A stretch of 64,000 bases of DNA, taken from NCBI GenBank assembly GCA_015075635.1, contig JABTUA010000001.1, positions 1,984,001 through 2,048,000 on the forward strand, in the 5' to 3' direction. The notes beneath the pieces were generated by a model. That model saw nothing but the letters and a program-made list of their open reading frames with translations. It did not search any database and was not told where the DNA came from. The stretch comes from Polyangiaceae bacterium. GTDB lineage: Bacteria; Myxococcota_A; Polyangia; Polyangiales; Polyangiaceae. Position numbers and translations under genes: made by a program. Shown piece by piece: positions 32,442 to 38,158 of this stretch. Position 1 is the first letter of the stretch, and each line of letters starts with the position of its first letter.

Positions 32442-32801
32442 TCACGCCCAGACGAACAGCGCGGTCGCGCCGAGCGCCAGTCCCCAGGCCAGGAGCGACG
32501 TGAAGCGGCCGCGCCGGCGCACGCGCTCGCGCTCGAGCGGCGACACGATGGGCTCGACACCCTCGTCCGTCTCGCGCAGACCGCGCGAGGCCTTGTAGCT
32601 TCAGGTGCCGTACAGGCCCTGAAGGAAGCCGTTCGCTGCCATGTAGAACGGCACCACCAGGAGCAGGCGAGCGGCCCAGGGGACCCCCAGCTTGGCCAAG
32701 ATCACCGCGCTGATCAGCGCCACGGCGACGGTGACGACTCCGTAGCGCAGACCCCGGGCGCTGCAGGCCGGGCTCAGGTTGGCCGTGGCTTCCGAAGCCA
32801 T
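32442..32801 (-). CDS. candidate small membrane selenoprotein (in-frame UGA, Sec67)
   Basis: A 119-codon frame with a single internal TGA (32601-32603) and a terminal TGA at 32442. Both parts are coding-like: in the 52 codons after the internal TGA nearly every third base is G or C. The product has three hydrophobic spans (about residues 20-38, 43-60, 101-119). The UGA is at position 67 just after span 2, in a GLYGT-U-SYKASRG context. A 7-bp stem with a GGUCU loop follows the UGA (see the SECIS entry), supporting selenocysteine. I recall related small myxobacterial membrane proteins with Cys here but cannot verify it. The alternative is a nonsense mutation leaving a 66-aa stub. No sel genes are in the window. 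Confidence 0.7.
32571..32589 (-). promoter_or_regulatory. SECIS-like hairpin downstream of the in-frame UGA
   Basis: On the minus strand CTCGCGC (32589-32583) pairs perfectly with GCGCGAG (32577-32571) around the five-base loop GGTCT. The loop begins 18 nt after the UGA. In E. coli fdhF the GGUCU loop of the SECIS also starts 18 nt after the UGA, as codons +7 and +8 (GGU CUG). Here too codons +7 and +8 are GGU CUG. SelB recognises the loop G and U in this position. Confidence 0.65.
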
Positions 32802-32846: not shown

Positions 32847-35585
32847 GTGACCGAGCCCGTACCCCGACGCGCCGCGCTCAGCTCCTTCATCGACGTGCGC
32901 GCGGGGGAGGGCAGGCCGCTGCTCTCGGCCACCGCCACGCTGTTCGGGCTGGTCGCGGCCCACAGCCTGCTCGAGACGGCGCGCGACGCGCTGTTCCTCG
33001 GCCAGCTCCCGGCCAGCCGTTTGCCGCTCGTGTACCTGGTGGTCGCGCTGGTGGGCGTCGGGCTGACGGATCTCAACGCGCGCTTCATCCGGCGCTTCGG
33101 TCGCAGGAACGCCTTGGTCGTCACCACCACCTTGCTCTCGCTCGGGACGGCCTGGCTGCACTTCCGACCCGTCACGCCGGGCCTCGCCTTCGGGCTCTAC
33201 GTCTGGAGCGCCCTCGCCGGATCGCTCGGCGTGGTGCAGTTCTGGCTCCTGGCCGGCGAGGTCTTCACCTCGGCCCAGAGCAAGCGCTTCTTCCCGGTCG
33301 TCTCCGCCGGCGGCGTGCTCGGGGCGGTGGTCGGCTCGGCGCTGGCGGTGCTCTTGCTGTGGCTGCTGCCCGTCGGCAGCTTGCTCTTGGCGGCGGCCGC
33401 GCTCTCGCTCGGCACGGCGTTCTTGGCCGCGTCGAGCTCCGAGCCGGAGGCCCTGGCGCCGCGCCAGCGCGCTCCGGCGCCGGCGCTCGGTGGCAGCGTC
33501 GGGCTCCTCCTCCACGATGGCTACGTGCGTCGCGTGGCGCTCTTGGTCGTGAGCTCGACCCTGGCGCTGCTCACGCTCGACTACCTGTTCAAGAGCGCGG
33601 CCGCGGCGGCCTTGCCGAAGCAGGAGCTCGGCCCGTTCTTCGCGCGCTACTACGGCGCACTCAACACCGCGGCGCTTGTGGTGCAGCTCCTGGTCGCCGG
33701 GCGCATCGTGCGCCGCTTCGGCATCGCGGCGGCGCTCGCGGTGCTGCCGGTTTGCCTGGCGCTCGGCGCGGCGGGCCTGGTGGTCCTGGGCGGCGCCTTC
33801 GCGCTCCTGCTCTTGACCAAAGGCGCGGACGGGGCGCTGCGGCACTCGGTCCACCGCGTGGGCGTGGAGCTCACCTACCTGCCGATGGACCCGGAGCTGC
33901 GCGACCGCGCCAAGCCCCTGATCGACTCGGTGATCGGGCGCGTGGCGCAGGCGCTCGGCGCCGGCGGGCTGTTCTTGCTGGCGACCTACGGCCTCGGTAG
34001 CCCGACCGTGCTCGGCGCGCTGGTCGCCGCGCTGTCCCTGGTCTGGCTGGTGGCGGCGCTGGCGATTCGACGCCCGTACCTCGACCTGTTCCGGCAGTCC
34101 CTGGGCCGCGGCTCGGGTTACGCGGAGCTGTCGCTCAGCGACCTGGATCTGGGCTCGGCTCAGACCGTGATCGAGGCGCTCTCGAGCCCGGAGCCGGCGC
34201 GCGCGTTGGCGGCGATGAACCTGCTCGCGGACGCGGAGCGCACGCGGCTCATCCCTGCGCTCATCCTGTACCACGACCAGGAAGAGGTGCTGCTCCGCGC
34301 GCTCGAGGTCGTCCCGGACGCGACCCGGGAGGACTGGGTGCCGCTCGCGCGTCGCTTGCTCGAGCATTCCTCCGAGCGCGTGGCGACACGGGCGGCGCGG
34401 GCGCTGGGGCGCCATGGCAGGTTGCCGGAGGTCGCCGCAGCCATCGGCCCCCTGCGGGCGTACCTGGCGGTGGGCCGCCTCGGGCGCGATCGCTCGGCCG
34501 ACCCAGCCGCAGATCCCGAGCTCACCGCGATGATCGCCGGCACCACGCCGGCGTGTCACGGCGCCCGCCTGGCGCTCGCCGACGCGATCGCCGACGCCAA
34601 GGACCCGAGGTTCTCGCCGGTAGTGGAGCGGCTCGCCCGCGACGCCGATGGGGAGGTCGCCGAGGCTGCGCTCGGTGCGCTCGCATCCCTGGGAAGTGAC
34701 GAGAGCATTCCGTTTCTGATCGAGACCCTCGCCGACCCACGGCGGCGGGCGGCCGCGCGGCAAGCGCTGGTGCGCTTCGGCGATCGAGCCCTCGAGGCGC
34801 TCGGGATCGCGCTCACCGACGGGCGCTTCACCGAGCGCGTGCGTCGAGAGATCCCGCGAGCGATCGGCGAGCTCGGCAGCGAGCGCGCCGCGGGCTTGCT
34901 CTCCGACGCGCTGGTCGGCGAGCTGCCCGGGCTCGTGCGCTACCGCGTGTTGCGCGCGCTCGGCCGCTTGGTCCGACGACACGGCGTGCGCGTCCCGCGG
35001 GAGCGGCTCGAGCCGGAGCTGCTCAGAAACCTGGAAGAGAGCCTGCGCCTGGCCGCCCTCGCGCTGGTGTTCGAGGAGAGCGGCCCACCGCCAGAGCGCG
35101 CGCGGCCGAGCGATCGGCTCTTGCGCGGCTTGATCGCGGACAAGCAGCGCCAGGCGCGGGAGCGCGCCTTCCGCATCCTGCAGATGCTGTACCGGAGCGA
35201 GGATCTGCGCAGTGTGTACTTCGCGCTCGAGTCTTCGGACAAACGCGTGCGCGCCAACGCTCTCGAGCTGGTCGACGCGCTGATCCTGCGCGCCAGCGAA
35301 GAGCTTCGCGATCTGCTCAGCTGGGTGGTGGACGACCTCTCGCTCCGCGAGCGCGTCGAGCGCTCGGAGGCGCGACTACCCGGTAGGCCGCGAACCCTGG
35401 ACGCGGCGCTCGGCGTGATGCTCGGGGACTCCGACGACGCGCTGGCGACCCTCGCCGCCTACCACGTGCGCGCCCTTGCCGTGACCGACCTCGACGACGA
35501 GGCCGCGGAGGTGTTCAGCCAGCGCCGCTGGATGCCCCTCGACGCCGACGCCTCGGCGTTGTTCGGAGGCCGCAGCAATGAGTGA
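32847..35585 (+). CDS. nucleotide-transporter (NTT/MFS)-like protein fused to HEAT repeats
   Basis: 912 residues. Residues about 30-420 contain 10-12 hydrophobic spans and resemble the ATP:ADP antiporter (NTT) branch of the MFS: SLLETARDALFLG, LPASRLPLVYL, and the RHSVHRVGVELTYLPM segment late in the membrane half. Residues about 440-900 are a soluble alpha-solenoid of HEAT-like units (AEAALGALASLGSDESIPFL, AARQALVRFGDRALEAL). It overlaps the cNMP-binding gene by 8 bp. Transported substrate unknown; NTT relatives in free-living bacteria with HEAT tails are not known to be energy parasites. Confidence 0.85.
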   Translation: MTEPVPRRAALSSFIDVRAGEGRPLLSATATLFGLVAAHSLLETARDALFLGQLPASRLPLVYLVVALVGVGLTDLNARFIRRFGRRNALVVTTTLLSLGTAWLHFRPVTPGLAFGLYVWSALAGSLGVVQFWLLAGEVFTSAQSKRFFPVVSAGGVLGAVVGSALAVLLLWLLPVGSLLLAAAALSLGTAFLAASSSEPEALAPRQRAPAPALGGSVGLLLHDGYVRRVALLVVSSTLALLTLDYLFKSAAAAALPKQELGPFFARYYGALNTAALVVQLLVAGRIVRRFGIAAALAVLPVCLALGAAGLVVLGGAFALLLLTKGADGALRHSVHRVGVELTYLPMDPELRDRAKPLIDSVIGRVAQALGAGGLFLLATYGLGSPTVLGALVAALSLVWLVAALAIRRPYLDLFRQSLGRGSGYAELSLSDLDLGSAQTVIEALSSPEPARALAAMNLLADAERTRLIPALILYHDQEEVLLRALEVVPDATREDWVPLARRLLEHSSERVATRAARALGRHGRLPEVAAAIGPLRAYLAVGRLGRDRSADPAADPELTAMIAGTTPACHGARLALADAIADAKDPRFSPVVERLARDADGEVAEAALGALASLGSDESIPFLIETLADPRRRAAARQALVRFGDRALEALGIALTDGRFTERVRREIPRAIGELGSERAAGLLSDALVGELPGLVRYRVLRALGRLVRRHGVRVPRERLEPELLRNLEESLRLAALALVFEESGPPPERARPSDRLLRGLIADKQRQARERAFRILQMLYRSEDLRSVYFALESSDKRVRANALELVDALILRASEELRDLLSWVVDDLSLRERVERSEARLPGRPRTLDAALGVMLGDSDDALATLAAYHVRALAVTDLDDEAAEVFSQRRWMPLDADASALFGGRSNE

Positions 35586-36504
35586 CTCCGCGGTCGAGCG
35601 CCTCGAACGCTCGCTGTTCATGCGCACGCTGTTCGGCAGCCAGAGCGGCCCGAGCGTGGAGCAGGTGGTGGCGCTGATGAGCGACGTCTACTTCGATGCC
35701 GGCCAGACCGTGTACCGGAAGGGCGAAGCAAGCCGCGAGATCTACTTCATCGTCAAGGGGCAGGTCGTGCTCGAGGCCGAGGGGCTCGCGCCCTGGACCT
35801 TCGGCGCCCGCGACGGCATCGGCTTCCAGGACGCGATGCAAGACAGCGCCCACACCCGCACCGCCCGCGCACTGAGCGCGGTGCACGCGCTGGCCTTCTC
35901 CGTCGAGGACTGGTTCGACGTGCTCGAGGGCAACCCCGAGCTCGGCCGCGGCGCGGTGATGGGCCACGCGCGGGCGGTGTCCCGGATGATCGACGAGCTC
36001 GGCTTCGATGCCGCCTTCGCGCCGCCCGGCCCCGGCGAGCCCGCCGACCTCGGCCGCCCGCCGGGGCTGGTGGACCGCATGCTCATGCTGACCGACGCGC
36101 CGCTCCTCGCGCGCGCCGGCATTCAAGCCGTGGCCGTGCTGGCGCGCCTCGGCCGCCCGCGTCTGATCCGCCAGGGCGGCCTTCTGCACAAGCAGGGCGA
36201 GGCTCGCACCAGCCTCTGCCTGGTCGGCCAGGGAGAGCTCCAGCTGGCGCGCGAAGGAGAGCCCGCCGTCGGTCGGTTCGGCCCCGGCAGCGTGGCGGGG
36301 AGCCTGGGCATGCTCGCGCGGCCGCGCCACGACGCGACGCTCTCGGCCGCGACGGACGCCGTCGTGCTCGAGCTCGACGACGACGACTTCTTCGAGGCGA
36401 TGGACGATCACTTCGATCTGGCGCGGGCCGTCTTCGCCTACATGGCGAAGGAACGCGGCCGGCTCATGGAGCTCATCGCCCGCCGGCGCGCGCTCAGCAG
36501 CTGA
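35578..36504 (+). CDS. double cyclic-nucleotide-binding domain protein
   Basis: 308 residues with two CRP-like cNMP-binding domains. Domain 1 (about residues 20-130) has FDAGQTVYRKGEASREIYFIVKGQV. Domain 2 (about 175-300) has LIRQGGLLHKQGEARTSLCLVGQGELQLAREG. There is no HTH and no membrane span. The canonical phosphate-binding cassette (FGExAL-x-R) is poorly kept in both, so nucleotide binding is uncertain. It is coupled to the NTT-HEAT gene (8-bp overlap) and probably acts as its cytoplasmic regulatory subunit, an inference from coupling. The 3' end overlaps the convergent Cys-rich gene by 11 bp. Confidence 0.85.
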   Translation: MSDSAVERLERSLFMRTLFGSQSGPSVEQVVALMSDVYFDAGQTVYRKGEASREIYFIVKGQVVLEAEGLAPWTFGARDGIGFQDAMQDSAHTRTARALSAVHALAFSVEDWFDVLEGNPELGRGAVMGHARAVSRMIDELGFDAAFAPPGPGEPADLGRPPGLVDRMLMLTDAPLLARAGIQAVAVLARLGRPRLIRQGGLLHKQGEARTSLCLVGQGELQLAREGEPAVGRFGPGSVAGSLGMLARPRHDATLSAATDAVVLELDDDDFFEAMDDHFDLARAVFAYMAKERGRLMELIARRRALSS

Positions 36505-38158
36505 AGACCTGCCACTCGAAGATGACCGGGTTCGAGCCCTGGCCGGTGTTGGAGGTGTGGACGCCGTAGATGCGGAGCTTGGTGGTGCTGACCGCGGTGG
36601 TCAGCGTGTGGCTCCAGTCGTTGGTCTGGCCCGAGACCGTGCCGGCGCCGACCCAGGAAGCGCCGTTCCAGTATTGGATCGTGCCGCCCGCCAGGTTCCG
36701 GCCGCTGGAGACGCCGCAGGTGCTCGCGCTCGCCGGGACGGTGTCGATGCTGATGCGCTTGACGGTCACGCTGCTCGGCCAGTCGAGCTGGATGTAGGCC
36801 GAGCCCGGCGAGCTGCCGGCGTCCACCCAGTGGAACTTCTCGGTGTTGCAGGAGGCCTCCAGGTAGCCGTCGTTCATCTTGTTCGGGCCGACGTTGAAGC
36901 TCACCTGACCGCTGGACCCCGCTGGGCTCGAGAGCGCCGTGGCCGTGAGCGCGACGTTGGTGGACGGATTGCAGCTCGACACGCAGCTGCCGCCCTGGCA
37001 GGTCTGGCTGGCGGAGCAGGCGTTGCCGCAGGCGCCGCAGTTGCTCGCGTCGGTGCTGGTGTTGACGCAGCTGTTGCCGCACTTGGTCTGGCCGCTGGGG
37101 CAGACCAGCGTGCAGGCGCTGTTCTGACAAACCTGGCCCGTCGGGCACTTGTTCGAGCAAACGCCGCAGTTGTTGGCGTCGTTCTTGGTGTCGACGCAGG
37201 TCGTGCCGCACTTGGTCTGGCCAGTGGGGCAGACCAAGGTGCAGACCCCGGAGAGGCAGGTGAGGCCGGAGCCGCAGGCGTTGCCGCAGCTGCCGCAGTT
37301 GTTCGGATCCACCTGCATGTCCACGCAGGCGTTGTTGCAGTTGGTCGTGCCGCCGCTGCAGATGAGCGTGCACTTGCTGCTCACGCAGCCCTGCCCGGTC
37401 GTACACGCCGTGCCGCAGGCGCCGCAGTTGGCTGGGTCCTTGGTCAGATCGGCGCACTTGCTACCGCACTTGGTCAGGCCGCCGGAGCAGACCAGCCCGC
37501 ACGTGCCGCTCTGGCACGCCTCGCCGCTCGCGCACGCGTTGGCGCAAGCCCCGCAGTTCTGCGGATCCACCGCCGTGTCCACGCACTTGCCGCCACAGTT
37601 CGTCGAGCCACCGGAGCAGACCACGCCGCACTGCCCCTGCGAGCAGACTTCACCCGTCGCGCAGGCGTTGCCACAGGTGCCGCAGTTCTGCGGATCCACC
37701 TGGAGGTCGGCGCACTTGCCCGACTGGCCCCAGCTCGAGCAGTTCGTCGTTCCACCCAGGCACTCGCTCGCGCACTGGCCGATGGTGCACATCTCACCGG
37801 CGGCGCAGATGTTGCCGCAGGTCCCGCAGTTCGCCGGGTCGGTCTGTAGATCGGCGCACTTGCCGTCGCAGTTGGTGGTGCCGCCTGAGCAGAAGCCGCC
37901 ACACACACCCTGCGAGCAGACCTGACTGCTCGGGCAGAGGTTGTCGCAAACACCGCAGTGACTCGGGTTCGCCATGGGGTCGATGCAGGCGCTCCTGCAC
38001 TGGATGTTCGGCGGCTGGCACTGCCCCGTCCCGCCGCCGGAGCCGCCGAAGGAGCCCCCGCCAATTCCGCCGACGTCCTCGCTGCTGCCCGTGGCGCAGC
38101 CCAAGGTGGCAGAGCCCAAGACCAAGAGACACGCCCCGATCCGCCGAAGGAAGCCCAT
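36494..38158 (-). CDS. Cys-repeat lipoprotein with C-terminal discoidin-like domain
   Basis: 554 residues: signal peptide with lipobox SATLGC, a Gly/Ser linker, then eight to nine Cys-rich repeats of about 40 residues. The repeat logic is C-x-x-G-x-T-x-C...C-x-D...D-x-x-N-C-G-x-C-x-N-x-C...G-x-x-C. The last 150 residues (NVALTATALSSPAG, FHWVDAGSSPGSAYIQLDW, RIYGVHTS) look like an F5/8 type C (discoidin) carbohydrate-binding domain. Surface-exposed and heavily disulphide-bonded. The family is common in myxobacteria; ligand unknown. Confidence 0.85.
   Translation of the reverse strand: MGFLRRIGACLLVLGSATLGCATGSSEDVGGIGGGSFGGSGGGTGQCQPPNIQCRSACIDPMANPSHCGVCDNLCPSSQVCSQGVCGGFCSGGTTNCDGKCADLQTDPANCGTCGNICAAGEMCTIGQCASECLGGTTNCSSWGQSGKCADLQVDPQNCGTCGNACATGEVCSQGQCGVVCSGGSTNCGGKCVDTAVDPQNCGACANACASGEACQSGTCGLVCSGGLTKCGSKCADLTKDPANCGACGTACTTGQGCVSSKCTLICSGGTTNCNNACVDMQVDPNNCGSCGNACGSGLTCLSGVCTLVCPTGQTKCGTTCVDTKNDANNCGVCSNKCPTGQVCQNSACTLVCPSGQTKCGNSCVNTSTDASNCGACGNACSASQTCQGGSCVSSCNPSTNVALTATALSSPAGSSGQVSFNVGPNKMNDGYLEASCNTEKFHWVDAGSSPGSAYIQLDWPSSVTVKRISIDTVPASASTCGVSSGRNLAGGTIQYWNGASWVGAGTVSGQTNDWSHTLTTAVSTTKLRIYGVHTSNTGQGSNPVIFEWQVFSC

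Follow-up and report, generated by a model that had tools for sequence, protein, structure and literature searches.

The stretch of DNA analysed here (the window) comprises 64,000 nucleotides of a Polyangiaceae bacterium genome. On its minus strand, between a converging GNAT gene that ends 3 bases away and a divergent transporter gene, lies a frame of 119 codons interrupted by a single TGA and followed, just beyond this TGA, by a perfect hairpin. The features at the locus are as follows.

32445-32801, minus strand: probable selenoprotein gene of 119 codons, from ATG 32801 to A119, with its stop TGA at 32444-32442; based on translation with TGA as U, colinear homologues and purifying selection before and after the UGA
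32601-32603, minus strand: in-frame UGA, read as Sec67; aligned to UGA in 22 other genes and to Cys in 29
32571-32589, minus strand: apical hairpin of the putative bSECIS, CTCGCGC-GGTCT-GCGCGAG, with its loop 19 nt after the UGA; based on a covariance model
32847-35585, plus strand: TLC (ATP/ADP transporter-like)/MFS-type transporter with HEAT repeats, divergent neighbour of the selenoprotein gene

An in-frame UGA with a downstream hairpin

The split frame consists of 66 codons, the UGA and 52 further codons, which give 119 residues, and its third-position GC content (GC3) was 0.89 upstream of the UGA and 0.94 downstream. The previous in-frame stop lies only two sense codons ahead of ATG 32801, and an ATG is present at the equivalent position in both same-genus relatives. 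Ordinary ORF calling at the locus returned a product of 66 aa (32601-32801). The sequence 3' of the UGA, AGC TAC AAG GC-CTCGCGC-GGTCT-GCGCGAG, forms a perfect 7-bp stem closing a GGUCU loop that begins at nt 19 after the UGA, with GGU CUG as codons +7/+8; in the E. coli fdhF record, GGTCT is likewise found at nt 19 past the UGA. Published criteria for a bSECIS include a loop of 3-9 nt with a G in its first two positions, located 16-37 nt after the UGA, together with a stem of 4-16 bp and an MFE <= -7.5 kcal/mol (PMC13188914). The window hairpin agrees with all of these (5-nt loop, nt 19, 7 bp, about -13 kcal/mol). An Rfam scan of the window returned nothing relevant.

Most of this had been noticed in a previous sequence-only reading of the window, which described one TGA splitting a 119-codon frame, a 66-aa protein as the product of ordinary annotation, and a GGUCU loop at nt 19 on a perfect 7-bp stem, with GGU CUG codons and the same loop at the same distance in fdhF. 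All of these were borne out, the fdhF comparison in the real E. coli record; the strand of the frame, left unstated in that reading, is the minus strand. Its third positions, described as near-total G/C, are indeed high in G/C in both halves, "near-total" being slightly generous.

In the window, 244 ORFs end in TGA and are at least 50 aa long; 116 of them have at least 45 open codons past the TGA. The Sec67 gene was the only one that combined at least 45 open codons with a perfect 7-bp hairpin whose GG/GU loop falls within the allowed range, and also the only one with a hairpin of at least 6 bp together with a GC3 of at least 0.85 on both sides. Taken alone, this coincidence of ORF, hairpin and GC3 within the window is suggestive; the reading of the UGA is firm because the comparative evidence adds to it.

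Homologues, SECIS conservation and selenocysteine machinery

A search of 59 related genomes showed that both same-genus genomes (65 and 63% identity) have UGA at this codon, thus three of three genes within the genus when that of the window is included, and that more distant family members have Cys at the position of residue 67. The homologues were colinear with the window protein from end to end, before and after the UGA. A profile search covering 379 genomes of the phylum added members of a second, larger subfamily, again with UGA; this canonical subfamily is characterised by the motif KTUVALASRGQRD and by an N-terminus like C-x-x-N-I-G-P-R-E-R-R-K-R, and the clade of the window gene by the motif GTUSxKASRG. 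A profile of all early members offered no sufficiently conserved stretch for scanning a collection of 84,980 species, which was therefore scanned with the canonical subfamily; 11 loci were found, all with UGA, including Acidobacteria-labelled bins and bins of Gemmatimonadota and Chloroflexota. Among 400 genomes from the phylum of one Chloroflexota locus, 40 had a member, nine with UGA and 31 without an in-frame stop; 21 of these stop-free sequences were read and all had Cys.

Altogether, we distinguished 23 UGA genes (window's included) in 22 genomes: 10 in Myxococcota, 10 in Chloroflexota, two in Gemmatimonadota and one labelled Acidobacteria by its record only. The residue 67 position was occupied by UGA in these 23 genes and by Cys in the 29 others examined, with no other sense codon among those read. 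A quick tree required at least four Sec/Cys changes and grouped the window's clade with Cys members of its own family. Four weak matches (L020, L021, L035 and L036) were set aside as chance after reading, no relative was found in viral contigs or plasmids, and PHROGs gave no match. One same-genus genome (G002) has two paralogues, L012 and L049, one from each subfamily and each with UGA. In a large Chloroflexota Cys clade (L063, L066-L079), Phe replaces the Thr ahead of the Cys, and the invariant Asn mostly has a Cys directly in front of it.

We compared the window gene with relatives on either side of the UGA. Against L011, dN was 0.34 and dS 0.97 upstream, and dN was 0.20 and dS 0.67 downstream; the downstream half compared with the same-genus relatives gave dN 0.20-0.25 and dS about 0.7. 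More generally, dN was below dS on both sides of the UGA in pairs of UGA genes, and for the downstream half this argues against a true stop, since a true stop would release that half from selection.

The hairpin was conserved along with the UGA. Between 4 and 7 contiguous pairs close directly round nt 19-23 in 22 of the 23 UGA genes, and in the remaining one (L048) 7 bp fold around GGU. Although similar to the UGA members over much of the protein, Cys relatives mostly lack the stem, with mostly 0-2 pairs; for the number of pairs out of 7, UGA and Cys members differed with a Mann-Whitney p of 3e-8, a pooled value that is overstated as the members are related. Double changes occur at third-codon positions of the stem (C-G to T-A, G-C to A-T), and the covariation score of 0.309, from genes that are not independent, was reached by none of 500 shuffles and exceeded all shifted registers. 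A covariance model built from 20 UGA genes, with the window's clade excluded, ranked the window hairpin first in the window (27.6 bits, E 4.8e-5), the runner-up site scoring 11.6 bits. Synonymous recoding tests were individually weak for each gene (window p about 0.11) and matter only when pooled.

The window's genome encodes the machinery for Sec insertion, with selA (C3:2144618), selB (C3:2154251; above the cut-off of TIGR00475, the SelB equivalog) and tRNA-Sec (C3:2156214; 71 bits) all within about 12 kb. Among UGA genomes, selA was above cut-off in 22 of 22 and tRNA-Sec was present in 21 of 22, compared with tRNA-Sec in 24 of 37 Cys-only genomes (Fisher p 0.01) and a background rate of 215/379 in the phylum at large. 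The UGA genome in which tRNA-Sec was not detected, a 2.2-Mb bin (G404), has selA. The SelB search covered nine genomes only; one UGA genome with selA and tRNA-Sec (G043, loci L096 / L050) gave no SelB-wing_3 match, a gap that could reflect either a fragmentary assembly or a divergent SelB.

Consistently with these comparisons, we conclude that the UGA at codon 67 very probably encodes Sec, and that the gene is a selenoprotein gene, with a probability of about 0.96. The alternative that the UGA is read by ordinary suppression, as Trp or Cys rather than Sec, finds some backing in the fact that Cys is the only alternative found at the site; we regard it as very improbable, because a SECIS hairpin at a fixed distance accompanies the UGA and is mostly missing with Cys, and because selA and tRNA-Sec are kept in UGA genomes. 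A true stop at this codon, or a recent nonsense mutation, leaving a 66-residue two-span product and a decaying downstream half, is scarcely credible in view of the same UGA in relatives across phyla, the purifying selection on the downstream codons and the presence of both SECIS and Sec machinery, even if this genome uses UGA as an ordinary stop, the final codon of the gene included.

The sequence-only reading had already proposed selenocysteine at residue 67, a proposal now supported by homologues, a conserved SECIS and the Sec machinery. It had expected Cys or UGA at this position in homologues, and only these were found among the sequences read; close relatives ending at the UGA or carrying a sense codon other than Cys, which it had named as pointing to a nonsense mutation, did not turn up, both same-genus relatives having UGA at that codon. 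Its SECIS reading holds, the hairpin being kept in relatives with compensatory changes, and the selA, selB and selC genes that it called for are all present in the window's genome. Where it spoke of one undescribed selenoprotein, it was right as to the selenoprotein and understated the extent, since the family spans several phyla and has two subfamilies.

Predicted structure and comparison with known families

A structure was predicted with AlphaFold2 from 47 sequences, with a mean pLDDT of 94.3. The parts of the model, and a candidate partner of Sec67, map to the window as follows.

32688-32771, minus strand: helix 1 of the AlphaFold2 model (residues 11-38), predicted to be the first membrane span
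32610-32678, minus strand: helix 2 of the AlphaFold2 model (residues 42-64), predicted to be the second membrane span, with Sec67 after its end
32448-32540, minus strand: helix 3 of the AlphaFold2 model (residues 88-118), predicted to be the third membrane span, following the beta-hairpin 75-84
32763-32765, minus strand: codon of Cys13, which may partner Sec67; in canonical members, C-x-x-N stands at the equivalent end

Past Sec67, the model shows residues 68-72 as a short helix and 75-84 as a beta-hairpin. A second structure prediction, from only 6 rows, was of low confidence (64.8) and reproduced the pattern of three long helices. The arginines in 73-99 would, by the positive-inside rule, put both N-terminus and Sec loop on the cytosolic side. 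Asn8, Gln61, Thr66, Sec67 and Arg76 are invariant in all 23 Sec members, 22 of which have a Cys within -5 to +6 residues of Asn8, on the same side of the membrane; in the window protein, Cys13 may thus be the partner of Sec67. The position of this second Cys varies between clades, and it is missing in one Sec member and in five Cys members, one of these five possibly cut short at its N-terminus. The family contains neither a UxxC/CxxU motif nor an enzyme domain.

None of the 23 members, nor further ones, matched a Pfam or NCBIfam model above its curated cut-off, and the PDB gave no match by sequence or by fold. A confident model places Sec67 after helix 2, as expected from the earlier description of a residue beside a membrane span in a three-span protein, and the label "of no known function" still applies, there being no Pfam, NCBIfam or PDB match. 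A 2026 catalogue of prokaryotic selenoproteins lists 119 families or subfamilies (PMC13188914). None of the 119 fits by Pfam/NCBIfam model, as far as the listed NF models are part of the library in use, and the entries with only cd, PTHR or no usable models, judged by name and motif, do not fit either. The new families of the deep-Sep paper (PMC12013277) figure in the 119-family table with their own models, mostly NCBIfam, and do not match this family. A full-text literature search, with subscription papers, preprints and supplements mostly outside its coverage, turned up no publication describing such selenoproteins in Myxococcota. Judged from its sequences, this is a new selenoprotein family that uses standard bacterial Sec insertion and is absent from the 119-family catalogue; it would add a family to that list. 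That the family has so far gone unlisted would be explained by ordinary gene calling, in which these genes are cut at the UGA.

The gene resembles E. coli FdhF in its in-frame UGA and adjacent downstream hairpin with the GGUCU loop at nt 19, and bacterial SECIS-dependent selenoproteins in general in having SelA, SelB and tRNA-Sec in the genome and Cys homologues. Unlike FdhF, it has no formate dehydrogenase similarity and encodes a small protein with three membrane helices and a T-U motif, with no UxxC/CxxU. The YeeE/YedE thiosulfate transporter selenoprotein is likewise an integral membrane selenoprotein, but that family is a much larger protein with its own Pfam model (PF04143), which has no match here. 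MerT is small, has three spans and carries a chalcogen residue in the loop that joins helix 2 to helix 3. Considered for this similar architecture, MerT (PF02411) was rejected: hhalign against one MerT sequence gave a probability of 0.5% over 11 columns, and the present family is without the vicinal Cys pair in helix 1. A selenoprotein form of the putative mercuric transport protein MerT is listed in the 2026 catalogue (PMC13188914).

YgaP-like_TM (PF11127, DUF2892) was a recurrent weak Pfam match of several members, the best at 15.4 bits against a gathering cut-off of 25.3. Comparison by hhalign gave P 5e-4, with a probability of 31%, below homology thresholds, and 0 of 150 block-shuffled controls; restricted to canonical Sec members, the match was weaker (7 of 150 shuffles). 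In the alignment, an Asn and an Arg close to the beginning of helix 1 coincide, and the Sec/Cys at the end of helix 2 falls on the YgaP Cys; Cys159 of YgaP lies at the end of TMH2, near bound thiocyanate (PMC4730233). Unlike YgaP-like_TM, the present family has a third helix and a beta-hairpin and is without the C-P motif and without rhodanese. With its three helices, it may be distantly related to the YgaP transmembrane domain, a link that we treat as a lead and not as membership.

Proposed function and genomic neighbourhood

We propose that the hairpin just past the UGA would direct SelB and Sec-tRNA(Sec) to recode codon 67, yielding a 119-residue inner-membrane selenoprotein with three membrane helices, in which Sec67 would lie at the cytosolic end of helix 2, ahead of the predicted short helix and beta-hairpin. 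Its selenolate, partnered by the near-N-terminal Cys, might form a redox or sulfur-handling centre on the cytosolic face of the membrane, and this centre would reduce oxidised or sulfur species reaching the membrane. We give such a redox or sulfur-handling role at the membrane an even chance. Slightly more tentative is the broader proposal that these proteins form a non-thioredoxin-like, three-helix membrane family of several phyla, with a cytosolic Sec at the end of helix 2, serving a sulfur- or lipid-redox step that has not been described for any membrane-embedded selenoenzyme.

A rival to the functional part only is that the selenoprotein would act in transport or binding (of a sulfur anion, a metal or a selenium species), like YgaP-TM or YeeE/YedE, and not in redox catalysis. 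A small three-helix membrane protein without an enzyme domain is compatible with this, as are the weak similarity to YgaP-like_TM, whose YgaP member binds SCN- near its Cys (PMC4730233), and the transporter gene adjoining it in the window's relatives; the MerT comparison was negative, however, and the neighbours differ between phyla. We hold it to be a serious, if lesser, possibility.

A selenoprotein family of this kind would depart from the common pattern in being a small membrane protein and not a thioredoxin-like fold. With several phyla and repeated Sec/Cys exchange, the family is a good system in which to ask why selenium is kept at one membrane site, and the fixed hairpin-to-UGA geometry can be traced across phyla.

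Gene neighbourhood was rejected as a guide to function, since neither a shared neighbour nor a conserved operon was found across phyla. The TLC/MFS-HEAT neighbour is retained in 7 loci of the window's family, in Sec and Cys members alike. At a canonical locus (G286), an AhpC/TSA peroxiredoxin ends 12 bp upstream, and several Chloroflexota loci have a glyoxalase-family gene next to or near the family member. At another locus (L041:3735-3980), a short frame that precedes the UGA gene by 18 bp resembles a peroxiredoxin without its middle, a gap that could be a deletion or an assembly fault; this apparent peroxiredoxin remnant had no Pfam match and was dropped as evidence. Elsewhere in the window (36494-38158, minus strand), seven stretches match the plant-named 'STIG1-like' Pfam family; the protein is a bacterial cysteine-rich repeat protein, with relatives in the same-genus loci.
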